Below, in pieces: positions 55,972 through 60,850 of a DNA stretch of 64,000 nt. The notes under the pieces were generated by a model. It did not search any database. It was not told the origin of the DNA and worked only from the letters and a program-made list of their open reading frames with translations. Within the stretch, counting starts at the first letter, position 1. The number at the start of each line of letters is the position of its first letter. The DNA comes from Gemmatimonadota bacterium (GTDB lineage: Bacteria; Gemmatimonadota; Gemmatimonadetes; Gemmatimonadales; Gemmatimonadaceae), in contig JAJPIS010000020.1 of assembly GCA_021324635.1 (NCBI GenBank), positions 1 through 64,000 of the forward strand, read 5' to 3'. The position numbers were made by a program, and so were the translations under genes.

Positions 55972-57788
55972 GACCGGGCATCCTCGTGCTGGGCGCACTC
56001 CTCGCCCTGGCCGGCCCGGCGCCCTCGGCCCGGGGGCAGGGGACCGCGGCGGGGGCTGCGGGACGGGACACGTCGGGGATGGCCGGGATGAGTGGGATGA
56101 CCGGGACGCGCCGAACGGGGGCGGACACGGGGGCACCGGCGTCCGCGCGCGGACGCCGGGATTCGGCCATGGCGGCGATGCCCGGGATGTCCGGGATGGG
56201 CGGCGGTGCCATGACGATGCCGATCCCGATGCCGGCCGGCATGGTCATGATGCCCGGGCTCGTGGGGCTCGCGCCGCCCGGCGGCACCTTCCTGCCGGGC
56301 GGGCAGGCCGATCTGGGTGCCCTGCCGGCGGCGCGCCCCCGGAGCCTCGTGCCCCTCGCCAATGGCGACACGCTCGACCTCACCGCCACGCTCGTCCGAC
56401 GGACCATGAACGGCCGGCCGGTCGCCATGTACGGCTTCAACGGTGAGATCCCCGGTCCGCTCATTCGCGTGCCGCAGAACGCGACCATCATCGTCCGCTT
56501 CCACAACCGGATCGACCTCCCGAGCGCCGTGCACTGGCACGGCGTCCGATTGGAGAACCGGAACGACGGCAGCCCCGGCGTGACCCAGCAGCCGGTCCCG
56601 GTCGGCGGAAGCTTCGTCTACCGGGTGCACTTCCCGGACGCGGGACTGTACTGGTATCACCCGCACGTGCGGGAGGACGTGGAGCAGGCGATGGGCCTCT
56701 TCGGCAACATGATCGTGGACTCGCCGGACAGGGACTACTACGCCCCCGCGAACAGCGAGCAGGTGCTCATGCTCGAGGACCTGCTCACCAACGCCGACAC
56801 GCTCATCCCGTTCGGCCGGCCGGGCCCCGACTTCGCCCTCATGGGCCGCGTCGGCAACACGATCCTCGTCAACGGCGAGCCGCACTACGCGCTCCAGGCG
56901 TCGCAGGGCGAGGTCGTCCGCTTCTACCTCACCAACGTCTCGAGCTCGCGCACCTACAACCTGTCGTTCGGCGGCGCCGCGATGAAGATCGTCGCGTCCG
57001 ACGTCAGTCGCTTCGAGCACGAGGAGCGGATCACGAGCATCATCATCGCGCCCGCCGAGCGGTACATCGTCGACGTCCGGTTCGACCATCCGGGCTCGTA
57101 CGCGCTGGTCAACGCCGTCCAGGCGATCAACCATTTCCGTGGGGAGTTCGCGCCCGAGGTGGATACCCTGGGTGCGGTCGCCGTCGCGCCCACGCCGGCG
57201 ACGCCGGACTACGGGAGCGCCTTCGCGACGCTGCGCGACAACGCGGCGGTCTCGCGCGAGATCGACCGGTACCGCGCCGCCTTCGACCGTCCGCGGGACA
57301 AGACCTTGCGGCTCACGGTCAGGGTCAACGGTCTGCCGCTGGCGACGGTCCAGTTCATGAGCGTCGACACCGCCTACTTCGCGCCGGTGGAGTGGGTGGA
57401 CGGCATGCCCGACATGAACTGGCTCTCGACGAGCGACGAGGTGCGCTGGATCCTGCGCGACGACGCGACCGGGAAGGAGAACATGGACATCGACTGGCAC
57501 GTCCGGCAGGGGTCGATGGTCAAGCTCCGGATCTACAACGATCCGATGTCCTTCCACCCCATGCAGCACCCCATGCATCTCCACGGCCAACGGATGTTGG
57601 TGGTGTCGCGCGACGGCGTCCCGACGAAGAACCTCGTCTGGAAGGACACGGTCCTCATCCCGGTCGGCGAGACGGTGGACCTGCTCATCGACGCGTCCAA
57701 TCCCGGCGCGTGGATGCTGCACTGCCACATCGCCGAGCACCTTGGCGCGGGGATGATGACCGTCCTGCACGTCGACCCGACGTCATGA
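55968..57788 (+). CDS. Multicopper oxidase with Met-rich N-terminus
   Basis: Exported three-domain oxidase of about 606 residues starting at a GTG that overlaps the preceding stop (GTGA). A Sec signal (ends ARGQG) is followed by a methionine-rich linker (about 37-95, with MAGMSGMTG and MAAMPGMSGM), a pattern typical of copper handling. Copper sites are complete: HWHGVR (189-194), WYHPHVRED (229-237), MQHPMHLHGQRM and WMLHCHIAEHLGAGM. Cys586, His591 and Met596 are the type-1 ligands. It probably oxidises Cu(I) or a metal/phenolic substrate in the periplasm. CcdA and thioredoxin-like genes follow directly and may maintain thiols during its maturation. Confidence 0.93.
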   Translation: MRPGILVLGALLALAGPAPSARGQGTAAGAAGRDTSGMAGMSGMTGTRRTGADTGAPASARGRRDSAMAAMPGMSGMGGGAMTMPIPMPAGMVMMPGLVGLAPPGGTFLPGGQADLGALPAARPRSLVPLANGDTLDLTATLVRRTMNGRPVAMYGFNGEIPGPLIRVPQNATIIVRFHNRIDLPSAVHWHGVRLENRNDGSPGVTQQPVPVGGSFVYRVHFPDAGLYWYHPHVREDVEQAMGLFGNMIVDSPDRDYYAPANSEQVLMLEDLLTNADTLIPFGRPGPDFALMGRVGNTILVNGEPHYALQASQGEVVRFYLTNVSSSRTYNLSFGGAAMKIVASDVSRFEHEERITSIIIAPAERYIVDVRFDHPGSYALVNAVQAINHFRGEFAPEVDTLGAVAVAPTPATPDYGSAFATLRDNAAVSREIDRYRAAFDRPRDKTLRLTVRVNGLPLATVQFMSVDTAYFAPVEWVDGMPDMNWLSTSDEVRWILRDDATGKENMDIDWHVRQGSMVKLRIYNDPMSFHPMQHPMHLHGQRMLVVSRDGVPTKNLVWKDTVLIPVGETVDLLIDASNPGAWMLHCHIAEHLGAGMMTVLHVDPTS

Positions 57789-58504
57789 GCCATATCGACA
57801 TTCTCGGTCGCCTCTCGTCCAGCCCCTGGACGGCCATTCCGCTGCTCTTCGCCGCCGGCGTGCTCACGAGCCTCACGCCGTGCATCTATCCCATGATCCC
57901 GATCACGGCCGCGATCGTCGGGGGCGAGAGCGTCGGACGGGGGGCGGCGGGCTCGCGTGCCCGCCCGCTGGCGCTCACGCTCAGCTACGTGCTGGGGCTC
58001 GCGCTCGTCTACGCGACGCTCGGCCTGCTGGCCGGACTCACCGGCACGCTCTTCGGCGCGATCAGCTCGAACCCGTGGGCGTATTTCGCGATGGCGAATC
58101 TGCTCGTCCTGTTCGCCCTCGTCATGGCCGATGTCGTGCCGCTCCGCATCCCGGCGGCCCTGACGAGTCGTGCCGCCCGAGCCGGGCGGGGGGGCGACAT
58201 CGCCGGGGCGTTCGTCATGGGCGCGGCCTCGGGGCTCGTCGCCGCCCCGTGCTCGGCGCCGGTCATGGCGGGCGTGTTGACCTGGGTCGGTACGACGCGC
58301 AGCGGCCTGCTCGGGTTCGTGTACCTCTTCGTCTTCACGCTCGGGATGTGCACGTTTCTCGTCGTCGCGGGTATCTCGACCGGGGCCCTGGCCCGCCTGC
58401 CACGGGCCGGCACGTGGATGCTCTGGGTGAAGCGCGCCTTCGCGCTGATCATGGTCGGCGCCGCCGAGTACTACCTGGTTCTCATGGGTCAACAGCTCGT
58501 CTGA
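57785..58504 (+). CDS. CcdA-type thiol reductant membrane protein
   Basis: Membrane protein of about 239 residues with six hydrophobic segments, the CcdA/DsbD transmembrane domain. The redox cysteines are present in two symmetric positions: Cys in LTSLTPCIYPMIPIT and Cys in GLVAAPCSAPVMAG. It passes electrons from cytoplasmic thioredoxin to periplasmic thioredoxin-like proteins. It overlaps the multicopper oxidase stop by 4 nt (ATGA), and the thioredoxin-like gene follows after 2 nt. Its natural partner is that protein. Confidence 0.92.
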   Translation: MSHIDILGRLSSSPWTAIPLLFAAGVLTSLTPCIYPMIPITAAIVGGESVGRGAAGSRARPLALTLSYVLGLALVYATLGLLAGLTGTLFGAISSNPWAYFAMANLLVLFALVMADVVPLRIPAALTSRAARAGRGGDIAGAFVMGAASGLVAAPCSAPVMAGVLTWVGTTRSGLLGFVYLFVFTLGMCTFLVVAGISTGALARLPRAGTWMLWVKRAFALIMVGAAEYYLVLMGQQLV

Positions 58505-58506
58505 CA

Positions 58507-59142
58507 ATGACGACATCGGTTCCGGTTGGACGGCATGCCGGTGGGCGTGCCGGTGGGCGTGCCGGTGGGCGTGCCGGTGGGCTGCCGGCGGGACGCGCTC
58601 TCGGGTGCGGGGGCGCCAGGCGCACCGCTGCCGCCGCGCGGGGTCGACTGACCGGGGCGCTCGTGGCCGCCATCGTGGTCGGTGCGGCCGTTGCGGCGCG
58701 GCCCGCGTCGGCCCAGGACGGGGGGATCGCCCTCGGTGCCCGGGCGCCGGCCGCCAGCGTGCGAACGCTGGACGGCAAGCCGGTCGACCTCGCGAGCGTC
58801 GTCGGTCCCGGGCCCGCGCTGATCGAGTTCTGGGCGACCTGGTGCCCGAACTGCAAGGAGCTCGAGCCGACGCTGTCGGCCGCTCGGGCGAAGTATGCCG
58901 GACGCGTGACGTTCGTGACGGTGGCGGTCGCGATCAACGAGTCGATCGAGCGGGTACGGCGGCACGCCGCCAGCCATCCCATGGGCCCGTCGATCGTGTA
59001 CGACGCCGACGGCACGGCCGCGAGCGCGTACGACGCGCCGGCCACCTCTTACGTGGTGGTGATCGACCGGACCGGCCGCGTCGTCTACACCGGCGTCGGA
59101 GGCACCCAGGATCTGGACGCCGCCATCCGCAAGGCTCTCTGA
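58507..59142 (+). CDS. TlpA/ResA-like thioredoxin-fold protein with Gly/Arg repeats
   Basis: Protein of about 211 residues. The N-terminus is odd: a 12-bp repeat encodes several GGRA units (AGGRAGGRAGGRAGG) before a hydrophobic signal-anchor segment (about 48-65). The thioredoxin domain follows with LIEFWATWCPNCKELEPTLSAAR, holding the CPNC redox motif, and ATSYVVVIDRTGRVVYTGVGG with the usual cis-Pro replaced around PATSY. It works outside the cytoplasm, most likely receiving electrons from the CcdA encoded just upstream. It is the last gene of the copper-type operon; a strong hairpin follows at 59214-59248. Confidence 0.88.
   Translation: MTTSVPVGRHAGGRAGGRAGGRAGGLPAGRALGCGGARRTAAAARGRLTGALVAAIVVGAAVAARPASAQDGGIALGARAPAASVRTLDGKPVDLASVVGPGPALIEFWATWCPNCKELEPTLSAARAKYAGRVTFVTVAVAINESIERVRRHAASHPMGPSIVYDADGTAASAYDAPATSYVVVIDRTGRVVYTGVGGTQDLDAAIRKAL
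58537..58584 (+). repeat. 12-bp coding tandem repeat (GGRA units)
   Basis: GCCGGTGGGCGT is repeated three times exactly from 58537 with a fourth partial, diverged copy. It lies inside the thioredoxin-like gene, encoding GGRA repeats just before the membrane anchor. Copy number may vary between strains. Confidence 0.8.
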
Positions 59143-59270: not shown

Positions 59271-59900
59271 CTACTCGCCGCCGCTGCTCCCGCCCGGTGC
59301 CCCTCCGCCCGTCGCCGTTCCTGAGGCCTTCTCGACGGCGTGCGCCAGGTCGCTATACGACTGCGGCGCGAGCACCTTGAACGGCTTGGCCACGTAGGTG
59401 ACACGCCCGTCCGGGGCCACGACGAACAGCGACCGGTTGTCCACGTTGTTCTTCTCGTCGAAGGCGCCGTAGATCTTGCCGACGGCGCTGCCACTGTCGC
59501 TGGCGAACACGATCGGGAAGTCCGACTCACGTGCCCAGTTCGCGAGCGTCGTGTCGGCGTCGACACTGATGCCGATCACCGCCACCTTGCGGCCGTTCTT
59601 GAAGAGCGTGGCGTACTGATCACGGTACGCCTCCATTTGGATCGTTCAGCCCTTGGTCCGCGCCTGATAGAAGAAGGCCAGGACGACCGTCTGGCCCCGG
59701 TAGTCGCTGAGCCGAACCGGCGCCTGAAGAAGCCCGTACCGGGTCGCGCCGCGCAGCGAGAAATCGGGGGCCATGCTGCCGACCTCCGGGCCGGCGGCGC
59801 CAGGCGACGTCGGCGGGGCCGCTGCCTGCCCGTTCGCTCGCGATGCGAGCGCCGTCACGGCGACGGCCAGAGTCCCAACCCAGCGAGTACCCAAGGACAT
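59271..59900 (-). CDS. Selenocysteine peroxiredoxin (in-frame TGA), exported
   Basis: One gene of 209 residues split by an in-frame TGA at 59646-59648. The first part has a signal peptide (ends SRANG) and the AhpC/TSA (BCP/PrxQ-like) beginning APDFSLRGATRYGLL...LAFFYQARTKG. After TGA the frame runs TIQMEAYRDQYATLFKNG and on to a complete thioredoxin-like end. In the family, this is TxxC, so TGA sits exactly at the peroxidatic cysteine (residue 85), one base from TGC. There is no other cysteine in the protein. A hairpin fitting a bacterial SECIS follows. I read residue 85 as selenocysteine. Reading TGA as a stop would leave two useless fragments; a pseudogene or sequence error are alternatives. 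It is convergent with the thioredoxin-like gene and may be served by it. Confidence 0.82.
59610..59631 (-). promoter_or_regulatory. Putative bacterial SECIS hairpin
   Basis: On the minus strand, GGCGTAC (59625-59631) pairs perfectly with GTACGCC (59610-59616) around the loop CGTGATCA (59617-59624). The loop begins 21 nt after the in-frame TGA, within the 16-37 nt window reported for bacterial SECIS elements, and has a G in the first two loop bases, as required by the known consensus. The stem lies inside the coding sequence, as usual for bacteria. Confidence 0.72.
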
Positions 59901-60040: not shown

Positions 60041-60850
60041 CTACCGGCCGGCCGGCGGCACGAAGAGGCTCGCGTCCAGTGGCACATCCGTCCGAACGTC
60101 CGAGTATTCCTCGCGCTGACGCAGCTTGCCGTCGGTGTAGAACTCGACCTTCTCGGAGAGCCAGCCGCCGCTCGGGAGGCGCACGTAGTTGTCGAACCGC
60201 GTGTCGGACGTCTTGCTCGAGTCCTGCCCCGCCGGCGCGAGGGACCGCACATAGAGCAGGCGCTCCTTGTCGATCCAGAGCTGCCGCGAGTGCAGATCGC
60301 CCGGCGCCGCCCCGATGACGTAGACCGGGCGCCCGTTCCAGGTGTCCTCGTGCACCGGCGCCATCGTGAAGTGCTCCGCGCGAAGCGATGCCAGCGTGCG
60401 CTCGACCGGCTGCACGTACACGTCGAAGCCGATCGTCAGGAGATAGTTGCCGCCGGCGAGCCGCCGCACGCTGTCCCCGCGGACCACGAACGTGGAGTCG
60501 TTGGCGAAGATGTACGCCATGGGGCCGGTCGCCCGCTCCAGATCGATGCGCAGCCGGCCGGGGAGCATCGCCTTCTCGCGCCAGGTCTCGATGACCATCG
60601 TGTCGGCCGGCGACCGGAGCGTCGTCCGCTGCGTGAACGTGAGTGTGTGATACCAGGTCGCGGCGTACCGGTCGTGCATGGCGCGGAGGATGCTCTCCCC
60701 GGTGGTCGCCGGCGCCTGCGGGCTCACCCGGGTCGCAGCCGCCATCGACCAGCACACGACGACCATGGGGAACAGGGCGGGGCGGGCGGGGCGGGCGGCG
60801 CGGGCGGGCCCGGCGGCCCGTCGCGCGAAGCGTGGCACAGTGAGGCGCAT
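60041..60850 (-). CDS. LolA-like outer-membrane lipoprotein-sorting-type protein
   Basis: Exported protein of about 269 residues; the start at 60850 has AAGGAG 6 nt upstream. A basic N-terminal stretch and hydrophobic segment form the signal. The rest has the LolA/LolB-like half-barrel pattern: YAATWYHTLTFTQRTTLRS, TWREKAMLPGRLRIDLERA, IDKERLLYVRSLAPAG, and TRFDNYVRLPSGGWLSEKVEFYTDG. Such proteins bind lipid-like groups. No specific function can be assigned. The peroxiredoxin gene is next downstream on the same strand, 140 nt away. Confidence 0.8.
   Translation of the reverse strand: MRLTVPRFARRAAGPARAARPARPALFPMVVVCWSMAAATRVSPQAPATTGESILRAMHDRYAATWYHTLTFTQRTTLRSPADTMVIETWREKAMLPGRLRIDLERATGPMAYIFANDSTFVVRGDSVRRLAGGNYLLTIGFDVYVQPVERTLASLRAEHFTMAPVHEDTWNGRPVYVIGAAPGDLHSRQLWIDKERLLYVRSLAPAGQDSSKTSDTRFDNYVRLPSGGWLSEKVEFYTDGKLRQREEYSDVRTDVPLDASLFVPPAGR

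Follow-up and report, generated by a model that had tools for sequence, protein, structure and literature searches.

Selenocysteine (Sec)-containing peroxiredoxins (Prx) are an established selenoprotein family (PMC13188914), for which the known motif is PxxxTxxU (PMC13188914). PrxU of Peptoclostridium (Eubacterium) acidaminophilum (NF040737) has a TGA-encoded peroxidatic Sec in a PF00578 domain, with TxxU as part of a complete PxxxTxxU motif (YPGDFTFVU), a 1-cysPrx C-terminal domain and no signal-peptide-like start. Sec is also found on the AhpC/TSA fold in surveyed Prx-like proteins, namely the Prx-like thiol:disulfide oxidoreductases (UxxC/UxxU) and the AhpC/TSA-like cd02970 group (UxxS) (PMC13188914). 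AhpE of M. tuberculosis (1xxu, 4x0x), in which Cys is the catalytic residue and the proline-threonine motif is kept, works with a single catalytic residue and needs an external reductant. An envelope peroxidase of Caulobacter, PprX, is fed by a membrane carrier (ScsB) and a TlpA protein, as cited in PMC5403849. Titles and abstracts from a literature covering few subscription journals and excluding bioRxiv yielded no description of a Sec or selenium peroxiredoxin in Gemmatimonadota.

The window analysed here, a stretch of 64,000 nucleotides on one contig (C41) of a Gemmatimonadota genome, carries a probable gene of this kind on its minus strand at 59271-59900. Translation gave 209 residues in one frame, terminated by TAG and broken by a single TGA at 59648-59646, as the first-pass annotation had read it. 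The AhpC-TSA profile (PF00578) matched residues 40-169 with 93.8 bits against a cut-off of 26, spanning the TGA, in agreement with the earlier observation that peroxiredoxin sequence lies on both sides of it. The catalytic Cys of AhpE aligned with residue 85, which placed the TGA where the first-pass annotation had put it, at the catalytic Cys position; this alignment and the conservation of the codon in relatives point to Sec at the peroxidatic position (Sec85, 59646-59648). Re-reading the translation also upheld the claim that the protein has no Cys other than at codon 85. The active site retained Thr82 (position -3) and Arg156, with Tyr78 at position -7, where the PxxxTxxC/U motif has the active-site proline. 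The PxxxTxxU motif is thus the part that fails, and placement in PF00578 still stands on the profile, the fold and the remaining active site. An AlphaFold2 model made with 31 sequences (the window and relatives) had a mean pLDDT of 87 and a Prx fold with a confident core, in which Sec85 sat in the first turn of helix 83-94; it matched AhpE with a TM score of 0.82 by target at ~31% identity, and other peroxiredoxins were matched as well. The protein is of the 1-Cys (here 1-Sec) type, a second Cys being absent from the catalytic domain in all 116 Sec and all 21 Cys copies compared. The N-terminus, MSLGTRWVGTLAVAVTALASRANGQA (59823-59900, minus strand), reads like a signal peptide, and similar starts were present in the relatives read, suggesting that the protein is exported. 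Upstream, at 60041-60800 on the minus strand, lay a gene for another exported-looking protein, which matched no Pfam family at E 0.001.

The published model of bacterial SECIS elements (bSECIS) calls for a loop of 3-9 nt with G in its first two positions, a stem of 4-16 bp (PMC13188914), a UGA-loop spacing of 16-37 nt and a minimum free energy (MFE) of at most -7.5 kcal/mol (PMC13188914). Past the TGA we predicted a SECIS hairpin at 59610-59631 (minus strand; 5' arm 59631-59625, loop CGUGAUCA 59624-59617, 3' arm 59616-59610) with the sequence GGCGUAC-CGUGAUCA-GUACGCC. The perfect 7-bp stem and 8-nt loop had been described correctly in the first-pass annotation, but its distance of 21 nt is that from the UGA to the apical loop, the stem itself starting after 14 nt. 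With a loop of 8 nt starting CG, a stem of 7 bp and a spacing of 21 nt, the hairpin lies within the bSECIS constraints, and the MFE of the 30-nt hairpin stretch, -11.8 kcal/mol, is within the published limit; over the full 48 nt, folding energy was only modestly low (z -1.9). The proposed match to known bacterial SECIS elements in position and in the G of the loop therefore held against published constraints, and was strengthened by compensatory changes in relatives. The RNAalifold consensus of 85 distinct Sec sequences was exactly this hairpin, with 97.1% of cells paired. Two-sided changes in the Sec stem numbered 36 cells against 14.9 in shuffled alignments, and covariation was 0.131 against 0.029, values that 0/500 shuffles reached in either case. 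Most of the variation fell at the foot of the stem, with the pair there switching between G-C, U-A, C-G and A-U as third codon positions changed jointly (GAG..GCC, AAT..GCA, CAC..GCG, GAA..GCT); in one copy (L113) Ala..Ala had become Thr..Val with the next pair preserved as a change from G-C to A-U. The outermost pair was broken in 16 of the 85 sequences, and tree-based contrasts of the foot base pair offered too few supported independent contrasts for significance.

The Cys forms of the same gene largely lacked these features. All six inner pairs were intact in 84/85 distinct Sec sequences vs 1/21 Cys sequences, and when the 21 Cys copies were searched for the compensatory signal, 63.3% of cells were paired, which did not improve on shuffled alignments. 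The loop codons CGT and GAT were present in 84/85 and 83/85 Sec genes, respectively, vs 4/21 and 9/21 Cys genes, which mostly had CGC and often GAC under the loop. As these codons are fixed in Sec genes and free in Cys genes, the loop sequence is conserved at the RNA level. Cys paralogues encoding a nearly identical peptide had neither the hairpin nor its odd codons.

We searched 395 Gemmatimonadota genomes (138 genera, 286 genomes of good quality) for the exact 37-base pattern formed by the TGA and the hairpin, using the reversed pattern as a control. The pattern was found in 231 genomes (~58%), in 178 of the 286 good-quality genomes and in 81 of the 138 genera. The reversed control had no matches among the 395 genomes, which puts the pattern far beyond chance. 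Homologues interrupted by a single TGA numbered well over a hundred in a phylum-wide protein search, and the best loci from this search were fetched and read to form the aligned set. At codon 85, TGA occupied 116 aligned copies and TGC or TGT 21, with no other residue in the column, so that the TGA proved to be conserved in relatives and to share its column with the Cys of homologues, in keeping with the first-pass annotation. No frameshifts or random stops were seen in the alignments read. The nearest relatives were metagenome-assembled genomes named Gemmatimonadetes or Gemmatimonas, which sets the phylum as Gemmatimonadota. A contig scan with a Cys-form query returned two close Sec relatives only, plus distant ones, one of which was read and was a Cys form. 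Plasmid records held no close relative, the best being a distant Cys form from Gemmatirosa (40% identical).

The host genome (4.09 Mb, 127 contigs, 96.8% complete) encoded selA, selB, selC and selD, the genes on which the earlier reading depended, all above curated cut-offs. Scores were 548.8 vs 267.9 for selA, 291 bits (319 including the C-terminal part) vs 242 for selB, 373.9 vs 125 for selD, and 73.3 bits vs a gathering cut-off of 47 for tRNA-Sec (selC), which had the anticodon UCA and was located directly downstream of selD. The selD gene had one in-frame TGA of its own (L018:1531-1533, at about 63327-63329 of contig C81) in the context RCAG-U-ASKMGPGD, and host SelD itself thus appears to be a selenoprotein from its reading frame. 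The 24-nt stretch just after this TGA can form an 8-bp hairpin with the loop CGGGU; folding of the 45-nt stretch after it was no better than that of shuffles. Across the phylum, selA was found in 282 of the 395 genomes, indicating that Sec decoding is common, and it was present in 214 of the 231 pattern-bearing genomes (93%) vs 68 of the 164 others (Fisher p 2.5e-29, uncorrected for kinship). The 68 genomes with selA and no peroxiredoxin pattern must have either another use for Sec or divergent copies of the gene. Seventeen of the 231 pattern-bearing genomes had no selA match; several of these were >90% complete, and assembly gaps may not account for all of them.

Sec and Cys forms differed at the active-site proline. 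At position -7, the 116 Sec copies had Phe or Tyr in 91, Pro in 19 and Ile, Ser or Val in 6, compared with Pro in 21/21 Cys homologues, and Thr or Ser at -3 together with the active-site Arg was kept in every Sec copy. On the family tree Sec and Cys were exchanged at least seven times and proline status changed at least eight times. A tree including PrxU had 8 Sec/Cys changes, 4 of them forced by supported branches; the PrxU outgroup was on a very long branch, and Sec-Cys changes were counted without root or direction. Supported contrasts were too few for a tree-based sign test of Sec against proline to be decisive. From the distribution of residues we infer, direction and cause included, that Sec tolerates loss of the active-site proline. 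In ten genomes the family was represented by a Sec copy as well as a Cys copy, and nine of these had the two in tandem (L095, L099, L087, L100, L113, L123, L127, L130 and L096). Two Sec copies were found in genome G263, in tandem (C18:63927 and 64530), and in G110, on separate contigs (C95 and C133), while genome G374 had two Cys copies (L081) despite encoding selA. Thirteen genomes among the fetched loci were Cys-only, and selA was absent in ten of them. Pattern search located a Sec copy beside the Cys copy in one of those ten (G182), which had no selA match at 96% completeness; the Sec trait may have been lost recently there, or the assembly may have a gap.

Next to the peroxiredoxin gene lay two plus-strand genes, one encoding a CcdA/DsbD-TM membrane electron transporter (57785-58504; PF02683, 169.9 bits) and one a TlpA-like thioredoxin-fold protein with a WCPNC motif and an N-terminal export-like sequence (58507-59142). 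The adjacent CcdA/thioredoxin-like pair of the first-pass annotation was therefore confirmed, with the added detail that it is on the opposite strand and convergent with the peroxiredoxin gene. Beyond the gene structure, conservation, hairpin and decoding machinery that are read in the DNA itself, we postulate an exported, active peroxidase. SelB carrying Sec-tRNA(Sec) would bind the hairpin 14 nt past the UGA, so that Sec is inserted and translation is not terminated. In the envelope, the selenolate of Sec85, aided by Thr82 and Arg156, would reduce peroxides. As the protein has no resolving Cys, an external thiol partner would have to reduce the resulting selenenic acid. The likeliest candidate is the TlpA-like protein encoded next door, which might in turn be recharged through CcdA from cytoplasmic thioredoxin. 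The simplest scheme, by analogy with ScsB-TlpA-PprX of Caulobacter, would have TlpA and CcdA recycle a 1-Sec peroxidase in the envelope.

For the central reading, that the minus-strand gene encodes a Sec-decoded peroxiredoxin, we estimate a probability of about 93% from the sequence evidence, and the TGA at 59648-59646 is itself almost surely decoded as Sec. Were the TGA a product of pseudogenization, or of a sequencing or assembly error turning TGC into TGA in an ordinary Cys peroxiredoxin, a one-base change would suffice in a single genome, and the assembly is fragmented. That explanation is scarcely credible when the same codon is TGA in 116 aligned copies, the pattern recurs in 231 genomes of 81 genera, both sides of the TGA are open frames with codon-position GC bias, and the rest of the protein is strongly conserved; we rejected it on the conservation of the TGA across relatives. 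It is also very improbable that the TGA is read outside the Sec system, by general reassignment or by suppression with Trp, Cys or another residue. The 17 pattern-bearing genomes without a selA match would fit such a reading, but selA accompanies the pattern in 93% of genomes and the hairpin sits at the position that SelB requires. Reassignment of the code was rejected because TGA is an ordinary stop both in the window, where it ends 17 of 26 long coding-like ORFs, more than any other stop, and in relatives, some of which (L132, L137, L158) terminate the peroxiredoxin gene itself with TGA.

What the Sec protein does, and what reduces it, leaves more room for alternatives. Loss of the proline and the resolving Cys might have turned it into a Sec-decoded non-peroxidase, such as a thiol oxidase, repair or sensor protein, given that the proline belongs to the known Sec-Prx motif and is kept in every Cys form but only 19 Sec forms. 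We consider this unlikely, since none of the 116 Sec copies has lost Thr/Ser at -3 or the active-site Arg, and the predicted model and the nearest solved relatives are peroxiredoxins. Reduction by some other thiol, with the proximity of CcdA-TlpA reflecting a shared stress or cytochrome-c-maturation neighbourhood, has a substantial though smaller share of the probability. The genes are convergent and not co-transcribed, and no such pair was seen at 12 of 31 relative loci for which flanks were available, some of the flanks at these 12 being short. On the other hand, CcdA and/or TlpA homologues lay beside the gene at 19 of the 31 loci (18 with CcdA, one genome being counted twice), the arrangement was kept across families although the partners were only about 45-60% identical, and PMC5403849 cites the ScsB-TlpA-PprX pathway of like design as shown in Caulobacter. 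On balance, we slightly favour CcdA-TlpA as the reductant of the Sec peroxiredoxin.

Ordinary gene finding would split this gene at the TGA, and standard annotation hides selenoproteins. Its presence in ~58% of sampled genomes suggests that soil Gemmatimonadota use selenium widely, and its Sec and Cys orthologues, tandem paralogues and linked proline change offer a natural experiment on the choice between Sec and Cys. A broader proposal, to which we give somewhat less than even odds, is that the gene represents a phylum-wide exported 1-Sec class in which Sec relaxed an otherwise universal proline to Phe or Tyr and was repeatedly exchanged with Cys as the proline returned, and that this class would be the main envelope peroxidase, fed by CcdA-TlpA, and one of the chief ways in which a dominant aerobic soil phylum uses selenium.

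The first-pass annotation had placed the protein among Sec-containing Prx-like proteins as a new member, and this is supported on a wider scale than claimed, as a distinct, phylum-wide branch at odds with the PxxxTxxU motif of known Sec-Prx. Like PrxU, it combines PF00578 with a TGA-encoded peroxidatic Sec in TxxU; unlike PrxU, it looks exported and has Tyr or Phe for Pro. Identity with PrxU was rejected on its different C-terminal domain, motif and N-terminus and on a score of 69.1 vs the cut-off of 270 for the PrxU equivalog profile (NF040737). From the surveyed Prx-like selenoproteins, which have other motifs, it differs in its TxGUT motif with no second redox residue nearby. AhpE is its nearest solved sequence and among its nearest folds. 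The likeness to Caulobacter PprX is drawn from the description of its pathway; the carrier here is of CcdA type and the peroxidase a predicted Sec protein. Judged by its sequence, this is a branch distinct from known Sec-Prx: AhpE-like, without a resolving Cys, with a signal-peptide-like start, usually with Phe or Tyr for Pro, and often encoded beside CcdA-TlpA.
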